DNA of 43,106 nt from an uncultured beta proteobacterium. GTDB lineage: Bacteria > Pseudomonadota > Gammaproteobacteria > Burkholderiales > Burkholderiaceae_C. Below the pieces are notes generated by a model that saw only the letters and a list, made by a program, of their open reading frames with translations, was not told the origin of the DNA and searched no databases. Position 1 is the first letter of the stretch. Every line of letters begins with the position of its first letter. The position numbers were made by a program, and so were the translations under genes. The DNA is taken from positions 1 through 43,106 of the forward strand of contig CAIQOO010000194.1 in NCBI GenBank assembly GCA_903873485.1, read 5' to 3'. Positions 8,111 through 28,900 of this stretch are shown piece after piece.

Positions 8111-8815
8111 TTACAGCGGCAGGGTATCAAACGTTTCGTAAGCCTTTTTCAGCCAGCTTCTGACACGCTGACGCTCCAGCAGTCCAAGTGCATCGAGATC
8201 GGGCCGACTGTTGATGGCGGCCCAGAAGCTGGCATTTTGCCGGTCCATCTTGCGCATGCTGCCCTCATGCAGTTGCGCCAGCGTGACCAACCGGGCACCC
8301 AGATCCCGTGCCTTGGCCAGGGCCGCCGAGTCGTCGAGCTGCGAGAAGTCGCTGCCGCGCCCGAGGTTTTTCACAATCAGGTAGTTGGGGCCAGCGCCAT
8401 AGGTGTCGAGCAGCTTGTCGAGCAGGTCCACCGAGTCTTGGCCGGCATCGGCCACATGCCAGAAGTTCACCGCAATCCCCATGTCTGACAACACATCGAT
8501 CAGGTCCGAGTCGTCAACCCAGCGCGCCAGCGGCGCGGCGGTTTGGGCGGCTAGGTCAACAATCACCCTGGGCTGCGCTTGGGCGGCGGTAACTTCCTCA
8601 AAAACGCTCACCACCTGGTCTAGCCCCTCGTAGCTGTCCACCAGCACCGGGCTTGCGTAATCGGCGTAAAAACGGGTAAACGAGGTGTGCGAGCGATCCG
8701 TGTCAAAGCCGACAAACGGCAGATCGCGATCAATGAAATACTGGGCTAAAACCCGTGCCACCACGGATTTGCCGACACCACCTTTTTCGCCGCCGATGAA
8801 ATTCAGAGAACTCAT
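8111..8815 (-). CDS. ParA/MinD-like P-loop ATPase
   Basis: A 234-residue protein starts MSSLNFIGGEKGGVGKSVVA. The deviant Walker A motif (KGGVGKS) marks the ParA/MinD/CobQ ATPase superfamily. FVGFDTDRSHTSFTRFYADY follows as the switch region. No ParB partner or parS-like repeat is adjacent, and the gene stands alone between argA and ppk2. It therefore looks like an orphan positioning or regulatory ATPase rather than a plasmid partition gene. Proteins of this size in Burkholderiales are usually annotated only as nucleotide-binding proteins. Confidence 0.8.
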   Translation of the reverse strand: MSSLNFIGGEKGGVGKSVVARVLAQYFIDRDLPFVGFDTDRSHTSFTRFYADYASPVLVDSYEGLDQVVSVFEEVTAAQAQPRVIVDLAAQTAAPLARWVDDSDLIDVLSDMGIAVNFWHVADAGQDSVDLLDKLLDTYGAGPNYLIVKNLGRGSDFSQLDDSAALAKARDLGARLVTLAQLHEGSMRKMDRQNASFWAAINSRPDLDALGLLERQRVRSWLKKAYETFDTLPL

Positions 8816-19186: not shown

Positions 19187-21745
19187 ATGTCCCGCAAATT
19201 GCCTCCTCCCATTAAAAAACCGATCACTGCTGCTGTCGCCACCAATGTGCAAGTGCAAACTGCGCTGGTTCACCTGGAAAAAGGCCGCTATCGTGACGCC
19301 GTGGCTTGCTACAAGGCGCTGCTGAAGACAGAGCGGCGTCCTGAGTGGCTTGTTGGTCTGGCCGCTGCCTATGCCGGACGGGCCAAAGGGCTTGCGGCCA
19401 AGGGCATGCTGCAAGAGGCGATCGGACTTTGGCGCAGTCGTGCCGAACTCTGCGGCACGCCGCTCTGGGATGGCCCCTATGCGGGTTGGCTGGTCAGGGA
19501 TGGCCGGCTGGCAGAAGCGCTGGCTTACCTGGCGCAGCAGCGTGCCAGTTCCGCCACACCACCTGACGGTCAACGCAATGATGAAATCGCCTTCCTCGAA
19601 GCCCAACTGGCTCCTGGCCTGCTGACCGCCGACAAGGCCATGCTGGCATTGCTGCCGGCCGAGTCGCTGCTGTTGCGCCACCGCCCGCATGCTCTTGCGG
19701 CACTGACCGCATATTCCAGCAAGGACGCGGCGGCGCTGGAGCAAGCGCTGGCGGAAATTTCATTTCGTTCCCCCTACCGCGACCTTCGTACCCTGCTCAA
19801 GGCGATGCTGCTCTGGGAGACCGATGAGGAGTCGGCGCGCTCGGCCCTTGTCCGGCTGCCGGAGGATGGTCCCTTTGAGCCACTTGCGGCACCCTTGCGC
19901 ACGCTGCTGATCAGCGGGCCTGAGAGGCTGCGGCGCTGGGCCGGTCTCGATGGCTCCCAACAAGCGATGGCACTGGATTTGCTGGGTTGCCCGCCGACGC
20001 TGGCTTCCTTGCTGCGCACGCTGGCCGAAACGGATGTTCATTTGGCGCCTGCCGCCTTGTTTGATCTGGTGCAGCGACATTCCCGCGATTTGCCCGAGCC
20101 GTTGGCGACTCGCGTATGGCAATGGCTGGTGCCTTGGGCGACACGGCGCGGTTGTGCCAGTCCGCGCATTTTTGGCCACCCATCTCCGGCTGCCGAGGAA
20201 TGCGCGAAGGCGCTGGCGGTAGAAATCAGCGGGGACTGGGACCATGCTGAAAATCATTGGGCGCAGGCAGCAATACTGCTGGCATCCAGCCAAGATCCGC
20301 AGGACCGGTTGCGCGCCGCCTTGGTGTGGCGCCACATTGCGCTGGCATCGGAGCATCTGTCGCGCGATGGCGTCATCGACAAGACCGCAGAGAGGGCGTT
20401 GACGCAAAGCCTGACCCTGGATCCCGATGACTGCGATGTGCATGTGCGGCTGGTCCAGTACTGGCGTCGCAATGGCAACTTGAAGCGCTCGCGGGAACAA
20501 CTCGATTTGGCATTGGTCCACTTTCCAGACAATGTTGCGCTGCTGGCCGAGGCGATTGAAACCGCCCTGGCGGCAGGCTCCTTCAAGAAGGCAGCAACAA
20601 CTGCGCGGCAACTGCTCGAACTCGACCCGCTGAACCGCAAGGCGCGCTCCTTGCTTGGCAACGCGCATTTGTCGCATGCGGTCAAACAGATTTCCGCAGG
20701 CAAGCTGGAAGCCGCCAAGAAAGAGATCAAGGAAGCCGCCAACTGGCTGGAGTCGGCGCTGGACCAGGGTCGCATGCAACTGCTGCAGGCCTGGTGTCAA
20801 CCAGCCGCAAGCGTTGAGCGTCTGCGTCTGGCGCGGCTTGCGGCAGTTACCTGGGGTGCGGGGCTGGCTGCCGGCTGGCGCTTGCTGCGCGAGGCCCAAG
20901 GAGCCTTTGCCCGGGCTGGCACCACAACCCTGACAGGGCTGCTGAGCGAGGCCGGCATCAGCACGGCAAAAGTCTTGCTGCCGGCCGATGTGCTCGAACT
21001 GGTGCTGGTGCTAGAGCAAGAAGCCCCACTTGTCCGCAAGGGCCAAGACCCGCTGTTGCCTTGGCGCAAGGCCATCATCGGCATGGCTCGCTCAGTTGTC
21101 TTTGATGCGCAGGAAACCATTCGCATTTGCGAAGCACTCAGCCGTCACCAGGAGCATGATCTGGTCGAGCAGTTTGCCAATGCAGCGCGCAAACGCTGGC
21201 CCGATCAGCCGATTTTTGTTTTTCATGCAGTTGCGGCACGTTTCCACAAAAACGGCTGCATCGAGACTGATCGTGACTACGATGACCTGGATGACGCGAC
21301 AGTGCGCGCGCGCCAGCGCAAGGATATGCGGCTGGTCATGCGCATGGAAGCGTTGTTTGAAGACGATGACTCCGACTCCGAGCCTGATTTCGATTTTGAT
21401 TCCGATGCAATCGACTTGCTCGACGACCTGAGTTCGCCTGGCGCTGCCGGATTGCCTGCAATGTTCGACAAAATGGGTCCGCAAGCGCTCCGGACCATGA
21501 TTGAACTGGCAACCAAGATCGACGGTGGCACCGCTTTCCTGAAACAGGCTCGCAACGACATGGGCGATGTGATGTACCGGCAAATTGAGAAGGAGTGTGG
21601 TGGCAACAAAAAACTCATACTGGAACGTATCATCAATATGATGATGTCCATGATGGGAGGTGAAATAAACCGGCCACCGCCACACGTTCTGCCAAAAATT
21701 GGCCAATCCAAAGCGCCTGTCAAAGGGCAGGGGGCTGTTAAATGA
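19187..21745 (+). CDS. large TPR-repeat protein, first gene of the alternative Hsp70 operon
   Basis: An 852-residue protein of mostly helical tetratricopeptide-like repeats (for example VHLEKGRYRDAVACYKALLK, then LDPDDCDVHVRLVQYWRRNG and DPLNRKARSLLGNAHLSHAV). An acidic stretch DDDSDSEPDFDFDSDAIDLL lies at about residues 724-743, and a Met-rich helix IINMMMSMMGG near the C-terminus. TPR proteins often dock chaperones, and acidic tails can recruit them; that role is inferred here. The stop overlaps the next start by 4 bases (ATGA). No sigma-32 promoter is evident in the AT-rich 19120-19186 leader. Confidence 0.85.
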   Translation: MSRKLPPPIKKPITAAVATNVQVQTALVHLEKGRYRDAVACYKALLKTERRPEWLVGLAAAYAGRAKGLAAKGMLQEAIGLWRSRAELCGTPLWDGPYAGWLVRDGRLAEALAYLAQQRASSATPPDGQRNDEIAFLEAQLAPGLLTADKAMLALLPAESLLLRHRPHALAALTAYSSKDAAALEQALAEISFRSPYRDLRTLLKAMLLWETDEESARSALVRLPEDGPFEPLAAPLRTLLISGPERLRRWAGLDGSQQAMALDLLGCPPTLASLLRTLAETDVHLAPAALFDLVQRHSRDLPEPLATRVWQWLVPWATRRGCASPRIFGHPSPAAEECAKALAVEISGDWDHAENHWAQAAILLASSQDPQDRLRAALVWRHIALASEHLSRDGVIDKTAERALTQSLTLDPDDCDVHVRLVQYWRRNGNLKRSREQLDLALVHFPDNVALLAEAIETALAAGSFKKAATTARQLLELDPLNRKARSLLGNAHLSHAVKQISAGKLEAAKKEIKEAANWLESALDQGRMQLLQAWCQPAASVERLRLARLAAVTWGAGLAAGWRLLREAQGAFARAGTTTLTGLLSEAGISTAKVLLPADVLELVLVLEQEAPLVRKGQDPLLPWRKAIIGMARSVVFDAQETIRICEALSRHQEHDLVEQFANAARKRWPDQPIFVFHAVAARFHKNGCIETDRDYDDLDDATVRARQRKDMRLVMRMEALFEDDDSDSEPDFDFDSDAIDLLDDLSSPGAAGLPAMFDKMGPQALRTMIELATKIDGGTAFLKQARNDMGDVMYRQIEKECGGNKKLILERIINMMMSMMGGEINRPPPHVLPKIGQSKAPVKGQGAVK

Positions 21746-22044
21746 GTGATCCGTACCAGGTACTTGGTATTGCGCGCGATATTGACGACGCTGCGGTACG
21801 CGCCGCCTATCTCGCCGCTGTGCGCCTTTGCCCCCCAGACCGTGATGCCGAGCGTTTTGCCGCTGTGCGCAAAGCTTTTGATGATGTGGCAACCCATCGC
21901 CTGCGGCTGGCCCACGCGCTGTTCGACCGCGAGGCACCGACGCACCGGGGGTTGTTGCACATGCTCGAAACCCAGTTTTCCAAGCGCCGGCCCGATGTGG
22001 CGCCGTTGCTGCGCGTACTCAAGGGCGGCAGTGATGGACGCTGA
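21742..22044 (+). CDS. J-domain-like co-chaperone with degenerate HPD motif
   Basis: A 100-residue protein starting MSDPYQVLGIARDIDDAAVR. This is the first J-domain helix (YQVLGI….) followed by AAYLAAVRLCPPDRDAERFA and VRKAFDDVATHRLRLAHALF. In canonical J domains the loop between helices II and III is His-Pro-Asp and stimulates Hsp70 ATPase activity; here that position reads C-P-P-D. Either a variant J activity paired with this Hsp70 or loss of stimulation is possible. It overlaps the TPR gene by 4 bases and the GrpE-like gene by 11. Confidence 0.82.
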   Translation: MSDPYQVLGIARDIDDAAVRAAYLAAVRLCPPDRDAERFAAVRKAFDDVATHRLRLAHALFDREAPTHRGLLHMLETQFSKRRPDVAPLLRVLKGGSDGR

Positions 22045-22705
22045 AGCAAAAGAGCGGCTGATCGAAGAGTTTCGCGCTTGCCTCGACGAATGGCATCAAG
22101 CTGACGGCGATGCTGACGATGCCTTGCAGGATGATTCCCCGGTCAATCTTGCGCTGTTGTTCTCCGAATTGTCGGTTTTGCGCAACGAAGTGCGTGTCGA
22201 GGCGCGCCAGTTCAAGACCGCACTCGATGAAATGCGGTCCTTGACCGAGCTGCTCGGCGAGCAGAACCGGCGGCTTGCCCGCGACCTTGAACGCTCCCGC
22301 GAGACAGCCGGTCTGGCGCAGCGCCAGACGGAGCGAAGTCTGCTGCTCGACATGATTGATCTGCGCGACCGCATTGCCGCTGCCTTGGCTTCGGTCAGCG
22401 GCTACCGGCCCGGGTTTCTTTCCCGCCTGGCGCGCAAGGAAGTCAAACTCGCGCAGGGTTTGGGTGAGGGCATGGAACTGACACTGCGCCGGCTTGACGA
22501 TATGCTCGCCGAGCGGCATGTGCGGCCGATCGAGGCCATTGGTGGACGGCTTGATCCCAACACCATGCGTGCCATCGGCGTTCAATTTATCGCCCAGCGC
22601 AGTCCGGGCGAAGTGCTCAGCGAGGCGCGGCGAGGTTATTGGCGCGACGAAGAATTGTTGCGTCTGGCTGAAGTTATTGTTAACAAACGAGAAATTGAAT
22701 CATGA
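22034..22705 (+). CDS. GrpE-like nucleotide-exchange factor
   Basis: A 223-residue protein. A long coiled coil comes first (ELSVLRNEVRVEARQFKTAL through NRRLARDLERSRETAGLAQ). A compact domain follows with ELTLRRLDDMLAERHVRPIE and DPNTMRAIGVQFIAQRSPGE, matching the GrpE layout (long helix, then beta head 'L.. .GV..I...G..FDP..H.A'). GrpE proteins release ADP from Hsp70. It is divergent from canonical GrpE, so the assignment rests on architecture plus its place between a J-like protein and an Hsp70. The ATG at 22034 lies within the preceding gene; its stop overlaps the Hsp70 start by 4 bases. Confidence 0.75.
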   Translation: MDAEAKERLIEEFRACLDEWHQADGDADDALQDDSPVNLALLFSELSVLRNEVRVEARQFKTALDEMRSLTELLGEQNRRLARDLERSRETAGLAQRQTERSLLLDMIDLRDRIAAALASVSGYRPGFLSRLARKEVKLAQGLGEGMELTLRRLDDMLAERHVRPIEAIGGRLDPNTMRAIGVQFIAQRSPGEVLSEARRGYWRDEELLRLAEVIVNKREIES

Positions 22706-24546
22706 ACGATGTCATTGTGGGTATTGACCTGGGCACTACCAATTCGGAAATTGCCGTTGTCAGAAATGGCCGGATTGAGGTCATCGAGATTGAAAATGGG
22801 GTGCCCATCCTGCCCTCTGTGGTTGGTCTGGGTGATGACAATGTGTTGCTGGTTGGCGCCGCAGCGCGCAACCAGTACATCCTTCACCCTGAACGCACGA
22901 TACGTTCAGTCAAGCGGCGCATGGGCGAGGCGACCCACCTGAGCCTGGGCGACAAGCAGTACAGCCCGGCGGAAATCTCGGCCATGATCCTGCTGCGCTT
23001 GAAGAAAATTGCCGAGGCCTATCTCGGAGTTCCCGTCAGCAAGGCCGTCATCACGGTGCCGGCCTATTTTTCCGATGCACAGCGGCAAGCCACGCGCGAG
23101 GCCGGCGAAATTGCCGGACTCGAGGTGGTGCGCATCCTCAACGAGCCGACTGCCGCCGCGCTGGCCTACGGCGCCCACCGCAGTGCAGCAGGCGCCGCCC
23201 CGGCAGCCACCCAGGCACGCAAGGCGCTGGTTTACGATCTGGGCGGGGGCACCTTTGATGTCTCGATTGTCAACATGGAGGGCGATGTGGTCGAGGTGCT
23301 GGCCAGTCATGGCAACAACCACCTTGGCGGCGATGACTTTGACCGCCGCATCGTCGAGTTCGTGCTGGACCACTTGAGCACCGTGCATGGCATTGATGCC
23401 GCGACCGCATCGGCCTCGCCAATTGCCATGGCACGGCTGCAACGCGCGGCGGAAACCGCCAAGATTGCCCTGTCAGACCATCCCTATGCCACGCTGGCCG
23501 AGGAGTTTCTGTTTGAGAAAGACGGCGCGCCGATTCATTTGTCACTGGAAATTTCGCGTCATGAATATGAGGCAATGATTGAGCCTTACATCACCGAAAC
23601 CATGGATGCCGTCCATGTGGCACTGATTGGTGCCAAGCTAGCGGTAGCGGATATTGACGAGGTGTTGTTGGTCGGTGGCACCACACGCACACCGATGGTG
23701 TCGCGACTGCTCGAAGCACTCACCGGCATTGCGCCCCATGGCGAAATTGATCCCGACCTGTGTGTGGCGATGGGTGCCGCGATTCAGGGCGAAACCATCG
23801 CCGGCGGGGCGACACCCACCGTGCTGATCGATGTCACCCCGTACACCTTTGGCACCAGTTCGGTGGCAGAGCTTGGCGGCAGAGAGTATCCATACTGTTT
23901 CATTCCCCTGATTCGCCGCAACACGCCGATTCCGGCCGCGCGCAGCGAGGTCTTCTACACCATGTTCGACAATCAGGAAAAGGTCGATGTCACGGTTTAC
24001 CAAGGGGAGTCGCCGGATGCTCTTGAGAACATCGAAATTGGCCGTTTCATGGTCGAGGGCCTGCGCAAGGTGCCGTCCGGCAACCCGATCGTGATCGATT
24101 TCGCTATTGATATCAACGGCATTTTGCAAGTCCGGGCGAGCGAGAAAAAAACCGGTCTCCAATACGCCATCACCATTGACAACGCGATTTCGCGCTTCGA
24201 GGATGGCAAGCTTGATCAGGCACGTGACCGCATCCGTTCAATGTTCGGTGACGAGACCGAAGCGGATGCAGATGCAGATGCAGATGCCGACGCCGACGCA
24301 CCAGAGTCGGATTCACCGGGCGCTGAATCACCACAGGAGCACCGCCGCAATCTGGTGGAGGCGACTGCCTTGGTCGAAAAGGCCGAGCACCGGCTCAAGT
24401 CTGCCAGTGCCGATGACCGGGAAGACCTGATCGACAACATTGAAGCGGTGCGCGATGCCATGAACCATGCCGAAGGAGTGGACGATGCGTCACTCCAGCA
24501 AGCCATGGCGGCGCTGGCCGATGTGCTGTATTACCTTGACAACTGA
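22702..24546 (+). CDS. Hsp70 (DnaK-like) chaperone, non-canonical paralogue
   Basis: A 614-residue Hsp70. ATPase signatures are VGIDLGTTNSEIAVV (about residues 5-19), VPAYFSDAQRQATREAGEIA (about 119-138), ILNEPTAAALAYG and VYDLGGGTFDVSIVNMEGD (about 181-199). The substrate domain includes VLIDVTPYTFGTSSV and NGILQVRASEKKTG. The C-terminal region has an Asp-Ala dipeptide tract (seven DA units) at about residues 523-535 and ends YYLDN, not the EEV-K/D type tail of DnaK. It is shorter than DnaK (about 640) and embedded in its own operon with TPR, J-like and GrpE-like partners, so it is a dedicated chaperone rather than the housekeeping DnaK. Confidence 0.92.
   Translation: MNDVIVGIDLGTTNSEIAVVRNGRIEVIEIENGVPILPSVVGLGDDNVLLVGAAARNQYILHPERTIRSVKRRMGEATHLSLGDKQYSPAEISAMILLRLKKIAEAYLGVPVSKAVITVPAYFSDAQRQATREAGEIAGLEVVRILNEPTAAALAYGAHRSAAGAAPAATQARKALVYDLGGGTFDVSIVNMEGDVVEVLASHGNNHLGGDDFDRRIVEFVLDHLSTVHGIDAATASASPIAMARLQRAAETAKIALSDHPYATLAEEFLFEKDGAPIHLSLEISRHEYEAMIEPYITETMDAVHVALIGAKLAVADIDEVLLVGGTTRTPMVSRLLEALTGIAPHGEIDPDLCVAMGAAIQGETIAGGATPTVLIDVTPYTFGTSSVAELGGREYPYCFIPLIRRNTPIPAARSEVFYTMFDNQEKVDVTVYQGESPDALENIEIGRFMVEGLRKVPSGNPIVIDFAIDINGILQVRASEKKTGLQYAITIDNAISRFEDGKLDQARDRIRSMFGDETEADADADADADADAPESDSPGAESPQEHRRNLVEATALVEKAEHRLKSASADDREDLIDNIEAVRDAMNHAEGVDDASLQQAMAALADVLYYLDN
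24263..24301 (+). repeat. GATGCA hexanucleotide tract in the Hsp70 gene
   Basis: About six to seven in-frame GAT/C-GCA/C units encode (Asp-Ala)n. Hexamer repeats keep frame when they expand or contract, so the acidic linker length may vary between strains. Confidence 0.8.
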
Positions 24547-24917
24547 TGGACCAGATGGAGCGGTGTCCGGCTTGCCGCGCGCGCCTGGCTGATGCGCCGG
24601 TATGCAGCCGTTGCGGCACAGATTTTTCAATTTCCCGTCGTGCCGAGCGTCAGGCGCTGGGGTGGGCATGCATTGCCGTGCGGCAGCTTTCCCAGGGGCA
24701 AACACGGCAAGCTGCCGAAGCTGCCGAAGCTGCATCACACTTGGCCAATTCGCCGTTGGCGCACGCCGTGACTCGAATGATCAGGCGACGCGAAACCACT
24801 CCGGACCAGATTGTCGGCAACCGTGTGAACCGACCCAAGTTTCGACCGCTGGCCGGCAACCGTGTGAGCCGACCCAAGTTTCGACCGCTGGCCGGCAACC
24901 GTGTGAGCCGACTTTGA
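24546..24917 (+). CDS. zinc-ribbon protein with tandem basic repeats, last gene of the Hsp70 operon
   Basis: A 123-residue protein. The N-terminal zinc ribbon MERCPACRARLADAPVCSRC holds C-x2-C … C-x2-C. A helical middle follows (GWACIAVRQLSQGQTRQAAE). The C-terminal third consists of 2.5 copies of a 13-residue basic repeat, GNRVSRPKFRPLA. Its ATG shares one base with the Hsp70 stop (TGATG). The repeats are exact at DNA level (39-bp units), so they are recent and may have extended an originally ~90-residue protein. Function unknown; the ribbon could bind RNA or an Hsp70 client. Confidence 0.75.
   Translation: MDQMERCPACRARLADAPVCSRCGTDFSISRRAERQALGWACIAVRQLSQGQTRQAAEAAEAASHLANSPLAHAVTRMIRRRETTPDQIVGNRVNRPKFRPLAGNRVSRPKFRPLAGNRVSRL
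24816..24912 (+). repeat. 39-bp tandem repeat, 2.5 copies
   Basis: Units start at 24816, 24855 and 24894 (partial). Each begins GGCAACCGTGTGA and contains CGACCCAAGTTTCGACCGCT; units 1 and 2 differ at one base (aACC versus gCC). They are in frame with the zinc-ribbon gene and end 39 bases before the tRNA gene. Confidence 0.9.
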
Positions 24918-24950
24918 TGCCGGTCGGCCTCGCTTAAAATGGTCAGTTGT

Positions 24951-25074: not shown

Positions 25075-26688
25075 ATGACCGAACTTCTTTTTCTGGCTGC
25101 CGGTTTCGGGCTGATGGTCGTCCTGCAAATCTTGCTGCTGCTGCGCCAACCGAAAATCGAGCTTCCCGCCGAACTGCTGCTGCGGCTCAATGCTATTGAG
25201 CAGTCATCACGCGCTACGCTGCAGGCAAGCGCCAAGAATGAGGGCGTTCTGGAGGGCCTGTCCCAGCAGATCCGCAGCTTTACTCAGGCGACTGCAGCCA
25301 GCCTGGATGCAGTCAGACGTGCGATCGATGAAAAACTGACACAAACGGTGGCCGAGTCGCGCCAAGGGCGCGCCGAATTGTTGGCCGCCTTTCAGGGCTT
25401 TGAAGGCAAGCTGGAGCAGCGGCTCGATGCAGTGCAGGCAACCGTTTCGACCCGACTCGACGAAACCAGCAAAGGCTTGCTGGCGCATCTGGCACAGGCG
25501 CAAGCCGATGCAGCCACCACCCGCAAAGAACTGGTTGATGCGCTGGCGGGCTTTCGCATTGAGATCAACAGCCAGCTCGGCATCATGTCTGGTGCCCTGA
25601 AAGACCAGTTGGATGGCAATGCCAGCCAGATCAGAAACCAGTTTTCGGCATTGCAGGAGTCGGTTTCGCAGCAACTCATCGCGCTGGTGACCGGCAGCCA
25701 GCAAAACGCCGAGCAGTTGCGTGTCGCACTCAATGAGCGCCTGGCCGCCATCCAGCTTGATAACACCACCAAGCTCGAAGAAATGCGCCGCACCGTTGAT
25801 GAAAAACTGCATGCCACACTGGAGCAGCGTCTCGGCGAATCGTTCAAGCTGGTCAGTGAGCGCCTGGAGCAAGTGCAAGCGGGCCTGGGAGAAATGAAAA
25901 CCCTCGCGGCCAGTGTGGGTGATCTCAAGCGTGTCATGACCAACGTCAAATCGCGCGGCACCTGGGGTGAAATGCAGCTTGGTGCCATCATTGAAAATGT
26001 GCTGACCATAGACCAATATGGCAAAAACGTCAAAACCGTGCCGGGCAGCAATGAACTGGTCGAATTTGCCATCCGGCTGCCAGGCAAGCACGAAGAGCAC
26101 CCGATCTGGCTGCCGATCGACTCCAAATACCCGGTAGAACATTACCAGCGTCTGATGGACGCCCACGATGCCGTGGACAAGGTGGCCATTTTGCAGACTG
26201 GCGCCGCCTTTGAGGCATCGGTGAAATTCGAGGCCAAGAAAATATTTGCCAAATATGTGTCACCGCCGCACACCACCGACTTTGCCATTTTGTACCTGCC
26301 GACCGAAGGCTTGTTTGCCGAGGTGATGCGCCGCCCCGGTCTGGTCGAAGCGATTCAAAATGACTGCCGCGTCATGATCACCGGCCCGGCCAATCTGGCA
26401 GCCATGCTCAATAGCCTGCAAATGGGCTTCAAGACGCTGGCGATTGAAAAGCGCTCATCTGAAGTGTGGAGCCTGCTGGGCATGGTGAAAACCGAGTTTT
26501 CCAAATTTGGCGATATTGTCGATGCCACCAAGAAGTCGATTGACTCGGCTGCCGCCAGGTTCAACGAGGTCGGCGTGCGTACCCGGGCGATTCAGAAAAA
26601 ACTGCGCGCTGTAGAAACACTGCCAGCACCGGCGCTGCTGCCAGTGGCTGGGGTTATGGCGGATTTGCCAGATGACGAACAGCTTTGA
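25075..26688 (+). CDS. rmuC: DNA recombination protein RmuC
   Basis: A 537-residue protein. An N-terminal membrane helix (MTELLFLAAGFGLMVVLQIL) is followed by a long coiled coil of repeated VDEKL/LAAIQ-type heptads to about residue 290. The RmuC nuclease-like domain then carries NVKSRGTWGEMQLGAIIENV, PIDSKYPVEHYQRLMDA and PTEGLFAEVMRRPGLVEAIQ. RmuC limits inversions and recombination at short inverted repeats. It lies directly after the tRNA and just before the antisense SRP RNA. The start at 25075 is the first ATG of the hydrophobic segment. Confidence 0.95.
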   Translation: MTELLFLAAGFGLMVVLQILLLLRQPKIELPAELLLRLNAIEQSSRATLQASAKNEGVLEGLSQQIRSFTQATAASLDAVRRAIDEKLTQTVAESRQGRAELLAAFQGFEGKLEQRLDAVQATVSTRLDETSKGLLAHLAQAQADAATTRKELVDALAGFRIEINSQLGIMSGALKDQLDGNASQIRNQFSALQESVSQQLIALVTGSQQNAEQLRVALNERLAAIQLDNTTKLEEMRRTVDEKLHATLEQRLGESFKLVSERLEQVQAGLGEMKTLAASVGDLKRVMTNVKSRGTWGEMQLGAIIENVLTIDQYGKNVKTVPGSNELVEFAIRLPGKHEEHPIWLPIDSKYPVEHYQRLMDAHDAVDKVAILQTGAAFEASVKFEAKKIFAKYVSPPHTTDFAILYLPTEGLFAEVMRRPGLVEAIQNDCRVMITGPANLAAMLNSLQMGFKTLAIEKRSSEVWSLLGMVKTEFSKFGDIVDATKKSIDSAAARFNEVGVRTRAIQKKLRAVETLPAPALLPVAGVMADLPDDEQL

Positions 26689-26698
26689 AAATAAGGTT

Positions 26699-26792
26699 GA
26701 CGAGCCTTGACCCCGGCACTGGCTCCACAGTTAGGGCTGCTTGGTTCCCCACCTGACCCGGTTGGCCGCTTTACCATGCGGGAAGGCCCGTC
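26699..26792 (-). ncRNA. ffs: 4.5S / signal recognition particle RNA (bacterial small type)
   Basis: Read on the minus strand, the ends GACGGGCCTT and AAGGCTCGTC pair over 10 bases (one G-U). The apical region reads GGGTCAGGTGGGGAACCAAG then CAGCCC. This is the SRP RNA domain IV: CAGG…AAGCAG internal loop capped by a GGAA tetraloop. The tetraloop is closed by GG/CC where E. coli has CC/GG, a compensated change. About 94 nt is normal. It binds Ffh for co-translational targeting. Location next to dnaX fits other betaproteobacteria. Confidence 0.9.
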
Positions 26793-26881
26793 GAGCGCGA
26801 TTGTAGCCATGCCGAACCGCCGGTTGGCGCAGGTGGCCCTGAAAATACGACGCGCACGATGCCACCTTTAGAATCAGCGCC

Positions 26882-28900
26882 ATGTCCTATCTCGTGCTCG
26901 CCCGCAAGTACCGTCCCCGCAACTTTTCTGAAATGGTCGGGCAAGACCATGTGGTGCAGGCCCTGACCAATGCGCTGACCACCGGGCGGCTGCACCATGC
27001 CTACCTGTTTACCGGTACCCGCGGGGTTGGCAAAACCACGGTGTCGCGCATTCTGGCCAAGTCGCTTAACTGCCAGGGACCCGACGGCAGCGGTGGTATC
27101 ACCGCGACCCCCTGTGGGGTCTGCCAGGCCTGTACCGACATTGACAGTGGCCGGTTTGTCGATTACACCGAGTTGGATGCCGCCTCCAACCGGGGTGTCG
27201 ATGAGGTCCAGGCGCTGCTGGAGCAGGCAGTCTATAAACCGGTGCAGGGTCGTTTCAAGGTCTTCATGATCGACGAAGTTCACATGTTGACCAACACGGC
27301 GTTCAACGCCATGCTGAAGACGCTGGAAGAGCCGCCCGAATACCTCAAGTTTGTGCTGGCCACCACCGACCCGCAAAAAGTGCCGGTTACCGTGCTGTCG
27401 CGCTGCCTGCAGTTCAATTTGCGTCCAATGGCGCCCGAGACAATTCGTGAGCATCTGCACTTGGTATTGCAAACCGAGCAGGTGGCGGCCGACTTGCAGT
27501 CGCTCAGATTGCTGGCGCGGGCGGCACGCGGGTCGATGCGTGATGCCCTGAGCCTGACCGACCAGGCCATTGCCTTTGGCTCGGGCGTGCTCGAAGAAGC
27601 CACGGTGCGCCAGATGCTTGGCAGTGTTGATCGATCCTATGTGTTTCGCCTGCTTGATGCGCTGGCGCAAGGTGATGGCAAAACCGTGGTGGAAACCTCC
27701 GAGATGTTGCGCCGCAACGGCTTGAGTGCCGCCTCGACGCTGGAGGAAATGGGCGCGGTATTGCAGCGCATGGCGGTGTTGCAGGCGGTTCCCGATGCAT
27801 CACAAGGCGATGAGCTGGATGTCGAACAGGCCGAATTCGGTCGCCTGGCCGATCTGATGCCGCCCGACGAAACCCAGTTGCTCTACAGCATTTGCCTGCA
27901 TGGCCGCAGTGAACTCGGCCTGGCTCCCGATGAATACGCCGCCTTGACCATGGTGCTGCTGCGCTTGCTGGCCTTCAAGCCCGCCAGCAGCAGTGCCAGG
28001 GCAGAAAAAAAAACGCTGAAAAAAACGCTGGCAGCAGTTGATCCGGCAGCTTTGCAACAGCCGACGGCAGCTCTTGCGCCCGCCGCGTCCGGGGCCGCGC
28101 GCGACCCGGTGGCAGCCGCACCAGCACCAGCCGCTGCTGCAGCCCCGCAAGCCGCCGCTCTGGCAACCGCCAGTCTGGCCGAAACCGCACCGCCGGCCGC
28201 TCTGGCCGCGAGGCTTGCCAGCGACCCGGCGTTGGCTGCGAAGAATTATGTACAAAATCAGGCCCCAGCCCTTGCCAGCTCTGCGCTGAGTGCTCCTTTT
28301 GTTGAAGCGAACATGAATTCGCCAACTGGCTGGCGTTTGCCGGTTGTCGCCATGCCAGGTGCGCCGTCAAGTGCCGAAAATTTTGAGTCAAATCGGCCTC
28401 CAGCCCATACCCAGCCTGCGCAGACAGCTACAACAATTGAAGCAATTGAGGTGCGGGTGCAGGCCCAATCCCAACGGGATGTGCTTATCGCTGACGCGTC
28501 GCAAGCGGTGCCTGCGAGTGCCGATGGCGACTTTTGGCAGGCTACCGTGCAAGCCCTGATCGCCAGCGAAGCGATTGGCGGCATGGTGCGCGAACTGGCG
28601 CTGCAGTCGCAGTTGCTGGCGCGCGACACTGATCAGTGGCTGCTGCGGGTCGAGCAAGAGTCGCTCAACCAAAGCGGCAGCCGTGATCGCCTGACTGCTG
28701 CGCTGGCCGCCGCCGGTTATCCGGTCAAGCTGGTGGTTGAAGTTGGCCGGGTCAACGACAGCCCGGCCAAACGCCATGCGGCAGCAGCGGCGGCAGCACA
28801 GTTGATGGCCGAGAGAATCGTTTTTGACGACCCCTTTGTGCAGTCCATGATGCGTGAATTTGGGGCGAAAATCGTGCCCGGCAGCATCAAACCTCTTTAG
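26882..28900 (+). CDS. dnaX: DNA polymerase III subunit tau/gamma
   Basis: A 672-residue clamp-loader ATPase, MSYLVLARKYRPRNFSEMVG onward. Walker A is FTGTRGVGKTTVSRILAKSL (about residues 43-62), the zinc module CGVCQACTDIDSGRF, Walker B/DEAD VFMIDEVHMLTN, and sensor 1 FVLATTDPQKVPVTVLSRC. A Pro/Ala-rich linker from about residue 375 carries two copies of the dispersed repeat. The C-terminal tau domain (DFWQATVQALIASEAIGGMV … FDDPFVQSMMREFGAKIVPG) binds the polymerase alpha subunit. A run of nine A at the start of the linker could allow -1 frameshifting to make gamma. ybaB and recR follow as usual. Confidence 0.97.
   Translation: MSYLVLARKYRPRNFSEMVGQDHVVQALTNALTTGRLHHAYLFTGTRGVGKTTVSRILAKSLNCQGPDGSGGITATPCGVCQACTDIDSGRFVDYTELDAASNRGVDEVQALLEQAVYKPVQGRFKVFMIDEVHMLTNTAFNAMLKTLEEPPEYLKFVLATTDPQKVPVTVLSRCLQFNLRPMAPETIREHLHLVLQTEQVAADLQSLRLLARAARGSMRDALSLTDQAIAFGSGVLEEATVRQMLGSVDRSYVFRLLDALAQGDGKTVVETSEMLRRNGLSAASTLEEMGAVLQRMAVLQAVPDASQGDELDVEQAEFGRLADLMPPDETQLLYSICLHGRSELGLAPDEYAALTMVLLRLLAFKPASSSARAEKKTLKKTLAAVDPAALQQPTAALAPAASGAARDPVAAAPAPAAAAAPQAAALATASLAETAPPAALAARLASDPALAAKNYVQNQAPALASSALSAPFVEANMNSPTGWRLPVVAMPGAPSSAENFESNRPPAHTQPAQTATTIEAIEVRVQAQSQRDVLIADASQAVPASADGDFWQATVQALIASEAIGGMVRELALQSQLLARDTDQWLLRVEQESLNQSGSRDRLTAALAAAGYPVKLVVEVGRVNDSPAKRHAAAAAAAQLMAERIVFDDPFVQSMMREFGAKIVPGSIKPL
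28005..28041 (+). promoter_or_regulatory. candidate programmed -1 slippage site for the gamma form of DnaX
   Basis: The in-frame codons GAA AAA AAA ACG contain a run of nine A (28005-28013), followed by a second run of seven (28019-28025). Slipping one base back at either run gives TGA at 28039-28041, truncating the protein at about 386 residues, just after the clamp-loader domains. E. coli (A AAA AAG, ribosomal) and Thermus (A9, transcriptional) dnaX use the same principle. No clear downstream stem-loop or upstream Shine-Dalgarno stimulator was identified. Confidence 0.6.
28248..28310 (-). repeat. dispersed palindromic repeat, copy 4 (inside dnaX)
   Basis: On the minus strand it reads …AAAGGAGCACTCAGCGCAGA, then GCTGGCAAGGGCTGGGGCCT, then GATTTTGTAC. 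Blocks GCGC, AAGGGCT and GGCC-nATTTT align with the intergenic copies. It encodes in-frame linker residues of DnaX (NYVQNQAPALASSALSAPF). Confidence 0.6.
28389..28450 (-). repeat. dispersed palindromic repeat, copy 5 (inside dnaX)
   Basis: On the plus strand it reads TCAAATCGGCCTCCAGCCCA, then TACCCAGCCTGCGCAGACAG, then CTACAACAATTGAAGCAATT. This is block-for-block like copy 7 (AAATTGGCCTCTAGCCCTTG … TGCGCAAGTAGCTATATTTT). It is in frame within the DnaX linker (SNRPPAHTQPAQTATTIEAI). Confidence 0.65.

Follow-up and report, generated by a model that had tools for sequence, protein, structure and literature searches.

A five-gene Hsp70 operon with its own GrpE-like protein, a J-like protein that lacks the HPD histidine, and a TPR protein with a candidate sliding-clamp motif in many relatives

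Results

Five overlapping genes encode the parts of an Hsp70 system

We analysed a 43,106-nucleotide stretch of DNA (the window) from an uncultured beta proteobacterium, contig CAIQOO010000194.1 of assembly GCA_903873485.1, which holds a run of five genes built around an Hsp70. The positions of the open reading frames (ORFs) on the plus strand were confirmed, and the genes overlap one another by 4, 11, 4 and 1 bases. The first (19187–21745) encodes a tetratricopeptide repeat (TPR) protein of 852 aa, a presumed scaffold with 22–64% identity to 68 relatives, and the second (21742–22044) encodes a J-like protein of 100 aa with PPD in place of HPD. These are followed by a predicted, dedicated GrpE-type nucleotide exchange factor of 223 aa (22034–22705), an Hsp70 of 614 aa ending in DVLYYLDN (22702–24546), and a four-cysteine zinc-ribbon protein (24546–24917), in which one region looks helical by eye. 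The original prediction, made from the letters of the window, was of an Hsp70 operon complete in itself, with a J-like protein, a GrpE-like protein and an Hsp70, and on this point the Pfam, profile and structure-model evidence agree. Promoter-like sites numbered 3, as against 1.4 (standard deviation 1.0) in shuffles, and none lies on the plus strand upstream of the operon.

Conservation was assessed in the best 80 of 197 confirmed relatives from a scan of named genome contigs, a set that includes two repeated genomes (L109 is the genome of L039, and L110 that of L042). Genes were scored as present at more than 40 bits, or at any match for the J and zinc-ribbon genes, so that the counts include genes cut short by a contig end and one Hsp70 remnant (L091). 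All five genes occur in order at 62 of the 80 loci and out of order at none, and the order is therefore conserved far beyond chance. Among the remaining 18 loci, 8 have the first four genes only, 4 have GrpE, Hsp70 and zinc ribbon (one with the Hsp70 remnant only), 2 have TPR, J and GrpE, 3 have GrpE alone, and 1 lacks all but the end of the TPR gene at a contig edge. Thirteen of these 18 are cut by a contig end, while five are not (L075, L086, L091, L113 and L124). Fifteen further genome picks, 4 of them identical to earlier loci and 11 new, also have the five genes in order, L178 retaining no more than the end of its TPR gene at a contig edge; for 14 of the 15, the nearest GrpE lies in the four loci titled Magnetococcales.

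Hosts among the 80 best loci include Comamonadaceae, Halomonadaceae, Chromatiaceae, Competibacteraceae, Thiotrichaceae, Methylococcaceae, Magnetococcales and Desulfobulbaceae. Among 369 sampled genomes of the class, the special GrpE scored above 96 bits in 10 genomes, including the window's own, and the next best match fell below 46 bits; all 20 of these lower-scoring loci that were inspected adjoin a DnaK-like gene. A sample of the window's order found it in 1 of 200 genomes, the window's own, and a sample of the phylum in 16 of 299, to which the scan of named contigs adds a few metagenome-assembled genomes labelled outside the phylum. Judged from these loci, the five-gene set is kept together in order across many families, in a scattered set of bacteria. 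The original prediction called for a survey across betaproteobacteria and would have been refuted by an order confined to this genome; the order is kept in many genomes, and its spread is wider but patchier than that group.

Six broken-up loci (L043, L086, L113, L124, L091 and L103) show J and GrpE followed by an apparent serS, GrpE alone, or an Hsp70 remnant, and in the same group two ORFs, substrate-binding and sensor-kinase-like by eye, lie between GrpE and Hsp70. The GrpE-like protein was absent from the 72,556 plasmid records searched. A phage search gave one weak match (38%) to the end of GrpE, covering the final third of the query; the record, Pseudomonas phage Y6 (OQ572408.1, 32048–32284), carries no annotation.

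The Hsp70 clade combines HscC-like and DnaK-like features

The window Hsp70 scores 486 bits against Pfam HSP70 and misses the NCBIfam DnaK cut-offs (526.5 versus 648 bits and 516.9 versus 822.55 bits). In a tree, the family Hsp70s form one clade (100/100) apart from DnaK, HscA and HscC. Residues were counted in one MAFFT alignment of 72 complete family sequences; rows with truncated genes were dropped throughout, leaving 72 Hsp70s of 86 loci, 81 J proteins of 88 and 79 TPR proteins of 87. Ten positions taken as ATPase-site residues are invariant in all 72. The nucleotide-binding domain (NBD) carries a deletion of DnaK residues 76–101 that leaves 2 residues in 72/72 sequences and is identical in two HscCs. 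Loop L1,2 of the substrate-binding domain (SBD) has about eight extra residues, being 27–28 residues long in 72/72 versus 19 in 21 DnaKs, and 23 and 27 in the two HscCs. The GrpE-signature loop is retained at the DnaK length of 13 residues in 71/72 and has 14 in one, compared with 7 and 7 residues in the two HscCs and 4 in E. coli HscA. On this alignment the clade is a mosaic, in which an HscC-like deletion and insertion are joined to a GrpE loop of DnaK length and to a GrpE of its own.

Kinship with HscC is suggested by the tree, where the family lies on one side of a branch with HscC (100/97), but long branches meet there, and the approximately unbiased (AU) test did not reject a grouping of the family with DnaK (p 0.073). 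Given the retained GrpE loop and the indecisive tree, we rejected filing the protein under HscC and keep the two apart. The window's own genome encodes further Hsp70s (L002, L003 and L005): two resemble HscA, and one, an HscC, has beside it a J protein that reads RPE in place of HPD.

Residues that would meet the HPD loop of a J protein are kept on the Hsp70 (R167 in 69/72, Q378 in 71/72, L391 and P419 in 72/72). Of the cleft salt bridges, the 55–267 pair is present in 63/72 and the 56–264 pair is lost, with N in 72 at one position and R in 71 and H in 1 at the other; the lid-latch residues R467 and H544 are replaced. The absence of a DnaK-type tail, noted earlier for this protein, extends to the family: the last lid helix ends the protein in all 72, with Tyr at position −4 in 72/72 and Asp or Glu at −2 in 70/72. 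The Asp-Ala run, described earlier as a linker, is real but is a simple-sequence expansion in the lid (24262–24300); no run of eight or more D/A occurs in the other family Hsp70s examined, and the feature is confined to the window's genome among them rather than being a family trait.

The J-like protein lacks the HPD histidine throughout the family

The J fold predicted for the 21742–22044 product holds by profile, by structure model and by the matches of its family. The window protein itself falls just under the Pfam DnaJ cut-off (25.9 versus 27.8 bits), while DnaJ is matched by 71 of 72 family J proteins scanned, with E up to 0.01, and the family profile (A2) finds PDB J domains with E 1.5e-11. 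An AlphaFold2 model (mean predicted local distance difference test, pLDDT, 79.6) has J domains as its best Foldseek neighbours, with probabilities near 1 and no E-value below 0.001.

The HPD position was read from helix II in 81 J proteins. The histidine is replaced by P in 71, S in 9 and A in 1; the proline is kept in 78/81; and the place of the aspartate is held by Glu in 60 and Asp in 21, and so is acidic in every case. The HPD histidine is thus missing from 81/81 proteins, which mostly read PPE or PPD, and likewise from 15/15 of the further genome picks. Mayer 2021 (PMC8215388) reports that stimulation was lost in each of the systems tested when the HPD His or Asp was exchanged for Gln or Asn. 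Because the histidine is absent in 81/81, a normal Hsp70 cycle cannot be assumed: the chaperone cycle that the original prediction drew from known Hsp70 biology stands as to its parts and is weakened as to its usual course. That prediction was silent on the missing histidine.

Drift of HPD has a precedent in HscC-type partners, since E. coli DjlB and DjlC read HPE and the HscC partner in the window's genome reads RPE. By BLAST the window J is closer to DjlC (37% over 57 residues) and to the HscC partner of its own genome than to DnaJ, and it gave no alignment with DjlB; the J family profile scores E. coli DnaJ at 44.0 bits versus 39 for DjlB and DjlC.

GrpE-like and zinc-ribbon proteins

The GrpE nature of the 22034–22705 product, also proposed earlier, is confirmed by Pfam GrpE (PF01025, 67.9 bits versus a cut-off of 25.8) and by a match of the family profile (A1) to the solved GrpE 4ani (E 1.7e-16). 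The NCBIfam GrpE cut-off is missed (best 38.4 versus 184 bits).

The zinc ribbon lies below Pfam cut-offs (best 17.9 bits), but an alignment of 56 family members, with the window's among them, shows no change at any of its four cysteines. Six aligned relatives start at an M(E/K)RCP methionine, and the window protein may likewise begin at that residue, nine bases downstream of the start given above. A 39-nt tandem repeat (24815–24931) forms the end of the gene, just before a tRNA-Arg; it was not seen in the six aligned relatives of the gene, and within the window's genome assembly a 36-base stretch of it is confined to this place.

TPR proteins of many relatives end in a candidate clamp motif

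The TPR protein matches Pfam TPR_14 at 33.2 bits. Its AlphaFold2 model (mean pLDDT 88.4) consists of a helical solenoid (residues 15–730), an acidic low-confidence linker (about 731–758), a small C-terminal helical bundle (about 759–823) and a low-confidence tail. Only generic solenoid or TPR proteins were found among the 50 Foldseek matches listed, and homology to the helical part of DjlC was looked for with hhalign and none detected.

Many TPR tails of relatives end in QLDLF, QFDLF, QPDLF, QGNLFDE and similar sequences; motif bearers include Variovorax paradoxus and Thiorhodococcus minor. The pentamer Q..[LMFI]F falls within the last 14 residues of 30/79 TPR proteins, as compared with a mean of 0.475 and a maximum of 4 in shuffled tails (2000 rounds), 6/4466 internal 14-mers, and 0/313 ends of the other four operon proteins. 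Flanking ORFs, a greedy ORF call and not curated genes, gave 3/705, or 2/695 after removal of ten core genes of L039 and L042. A hexamer, Q-[LIV]-x-[LIF]-x-[LF], adds two more of the 79 TPR proteins versus 0/695 control ORFs; the shuffle control covers the pentamer, and the hexamer was compared with flanking ORFs alone. Of the four loci titled Magnetococcales, two have hexameric tails (QLEFDF and QLEIEF), one has none and one is a gene fragment. One or other form is also found in 8 of the 15 further genome picks (QLILDF, QLTLDF and similar), or 6 of the 11 new ones. In a number of tails a basic stretch precedes the hydrophobic motif. Because the motif codons vary (14 CAA versus 16 CAG for Gln, and several Leu codons), a protein motif is favoured over a DNA signal.

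One study (PMC11139829) gives QL(S/D)LF as the clamp consensus and QLDLF as the strongest binder, reports the hexameric LQLELDF from phage display, and counts C-terminal tails among the known places of the motif. By sequence, the tail motifs match both published shapes of the beta-sliding-clamp-binding motif, the QLDLF type and QLxLxF, in different lineages. The sequence Q-T-D-L-F near the GrpE N-terminus of seven Thiotrichaceae-type loci was taken to belong to a conserved helix and rejected as a clamp motif.

When the pentamer alone was mapped on the Hsp70 tree, it needed 9 changes versus 21.5 for shuffled labels, and 25 of 27 bearers fell in one half of the tree. DNA alignment of the window with eight close relatives, together with the protein tails, places the motif at the 3′ end of the TPR gene (21700–21745 on the plus strand of the window) in 5 of the 8. 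In the window and a pair of close relatives, small indels make the reading frame of the last codons differ from that of the motif-bearing relatives, and for this reason the motif has seemingly been lost from the window copy. The motif of the relatives was not visible from the window.

Genomic surroundings

The neighbour survey covered 103 nearest neighbours, with 25 of 87 Pfam and 25 of 54 PADLOC families listed. No fixed partner gene outside the five was found among the neighbours of the fetched loci. Those that recur are an M16 peptidase (7/103, in Competibacteraceae-type loci) and cytochrome bc1 parts (in Thiotrichaceae-type loci). We treated as generic a loose single-linkage cluster of ORFs that resemble sensor kinases by eye and have members at 19 loci, at distances that differ from locus to locus.

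The window also carries rmuC and dnaX (25075–28900), which lie downstream of the tRNA that follows the operon. These are suggestive alongside a clamp connection; neither is in any neighbour cluster of three or more loci. ORFs for a ParA-like ATPase (by eye) occur near the operon at 8111–8815 of the window and, in L044 (6558–7253), upstream of its TPR gene; their cluster has a further member in L127 (Methylomicrobium), and the window copy has no Pfam match.

Discussion

In terms of sequence, the operon joins an Hsp70 that retains ATPase and HPD-loop-contact residues to a GrpE matched by the GrpE-signature loop, a J-fold protein with PP[ED] for HPD, a large TPR solenoid and a four-cysteine zinc ribbon. 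The explanation that we tentatively favour, with about as much reason to doubt it as to hold it, is a dedicated Hsp70 cycle that runs on the TPR scaffold and in many hosts is tethered to the sliding clamp. The TPR solenoid would gather J, GrpE and Hsp70 and choose their site of action, and its flexible tail, often a basic stretch followed by QLDLF or QLxLDF, would dock on the beta sliding clamp of DNA polymerase III. If the tail holds the clamp, it follows that the ATP-driven cycle would act on clamp- or DNA-bound clients, such as stalled or persistent protein–DNA complexes at forks. The J protein without histidine may still dock, placing its acidic residue on R167 of Hsp70, but its stimulation of ATP hydrolysis would be altered or under tighter regulation, and GrpE would reset the cycle. 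The clamp tag is missing from the window's own genome, where the machine, if it is active, would have to do without that tether. Of the "dedicated assembly or stress machine" proposed at first, a dedicated Hsp70 machine remains, while assembly or stress gives way to the putative tether.

Several observations weigh against this explanation. Neither motif form is present in 47/79 TPR proteins, the window's own among them, and a stricter form of the pentamer fits just 15/79. The 9 gains or losses that the tree requires make the pentamer inessential to the machine. Of the acidic J contacts that Mayer 2021 gives for DnaK, the Hsp70 keeps only E217 (70/72), D211 being deleted in 72/72, E206 mostly replaced and D477 kept in 10/72; these changes render J docking itself uncertain. 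With the HPD-loop partners kept and most acidic contacts lost, docking of the J protein appears possible but stimulation doubtful. No recurrent replication gene was seen among the neighbour families listed, and so short a tail motif could serve another partner, for instance the peptide groove of the Hsp70 itself.

The same absence of the motif from 47/79 TPR proteins fits another account, namely a dedicated HscC-like Hsp70 system for a few cytosolic clients, engaged in quality control or assembly, with the TPR protein as client receptor and a tail motif that is incidental or meant for some other partner. TPR proteins are common client or chaperone adaptors, the HscC-like NBD deletion and SBD loop insertion are found in all 72 Hsp70s, and the HscC with its J partner in the window's genome indicates that such systems coexist. 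We regard this account as a real possibility, though one we would not choose, since it leaves a tail motif that is far above each control and that takes both known clamp-motif forms in different lineages. If the motif instead binds the Hsp70 groove, it would be a tethered pseudo-substrate that keeps scaffold and Hsp70 together. The basic stretch before the hydrophobic motif in a number of tails would suit such a role, as would the statement, in the HscC part of Mayer 2021 (PMC8215388), that positive charge is the main contributor to HscC peptide binding; but neither the glutamine nor two specific spacings (QxxLF and QLxLxF) would then be needed, and we consider the idea improbable. Least probable of all, in our view, is a defence or conflict system, whether as a module resembling the GAP1-N2 GTPase systems or as a member of the defence-like gene cluster that lies upstream of it in the window. 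PADLOC gave the five proteins only two weak matches to described anti-phage systems (E 0.008 and 0.0097). Among the 103 neighbours, defence matches are scattered and each listed PADLOC family accounts for at most 2; none of the recurring neighbours listed is conspicuous as a GTPase or effector, and the GrpE-like protein was not found in the plasmid records searched. On the PADLOC, plasmid and neighbour evidence, a defence island was rejected as the principal explanation.

A bolder form of the tethered-chaperone proposal, about which we are distinctly more doubtful, would add a fourth kind to the bacterial Hsp70 machines DnaK, HscA and HscC. In this form Hsp70, GrpE and J, assembled on the TPR scaffold, would travel with the replication sliding clamp and remodel protein complexes bound to the clamp or the fork, and the driving J protein would function in the absence of the HPD histidine. 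Mayer 2021 (PMC8215388) treats bacterial Hsp70 biology as DnaK, HscA and HscC, giving the features of each, and argues that specialised Hsp70s have no further need of an exchange factor. A clade that is specialised by architecture and yet has its own GrpE would be an exception to that argument, if its GrpE works. It also employs a J protein without the very residue whose replacement by Gln abolished stimulation in every tested system of that account. Should the TPR tail indeed hold the clamp, a short motif of known function would direct a chaperone machine to the replisome, and the old question of Hsp70 action on replication complexes would become directly testable. That question has a background in the lowered Red recombination of chaperone mutants, as reported in one paper (PMC3686724), and in DnaK-DnaJ-GrpE roles in mini-F and P1 replication, as named in titles from the reference list of another (PMC4980987). 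The clamp tag hints that this chaperone may work at DNA and not on proteins in general.

Comparison with known systems

Among the papers that searches of the open-access literature listed, no title or abstract opening points to the five-gene operon; subscription papers lie outside that scope. The spread of HscA and HscC is said to have been treated by Barriot et al. in 2020, as cited by Mayer, and Kaur et al. in 2020 reportedly described GAP1-N2 GTPase conflict systems with HSP70-GrpE. Those systems share HSP70, GrpE and J or TPR components with the present one, which is proteobacterial and in which no GTPase, FNIII or effector was noticed. Pan et al. 2024 (PMC11019930) screened for paralogs of the DnaK type (PRK00290).

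DnaK-DnaJ-GrpE is alike in its Hsp70, J and GrpE cycle parts, the GrpE loop, and the ATPase and HPD-contact residues. Unlike DnaK, the operon Hsp70 (39% identical to E. coli DnaK) lies under the NCBIfam DnaK cut-offs, has no disordered tail, has replaced the R467/H544 latch and R56 salt-bridge residues and has lost the J-contact D211, and the operon J is little beyond a J domain, without the His. HscC-DjlC/DjlB of E. coli shares the NBD 76–101 deletion, the SBD loop L1,2 insertion, a nearby J partner with a changed HPD (HPE in DjlB and DjlC, RPE in the own-genome partner) and an AYL or GYL signature in that partner. The operon differs in keeping the GrpE-signature loop and a dedicated GrpE, in a J protein of 100 aa versus 475 and 483 aa for DjlB and DjlC, which are reported to be tail-anchored, and in its separate TPR and zinc-ribbon genes; the tree does not prove a common origin. 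For the tail itself, the nearest parallels are Pol II, Pol IV and Pol III alpha, which carry a QLDLF-type motif in the C-terminal tail according to PMC11139829. Unlike these DNA enzymes, the TPR protein appears to be a chaperone scaffold, one whose putative binding to the clamp would bring an Hsp70 cycle to the site.

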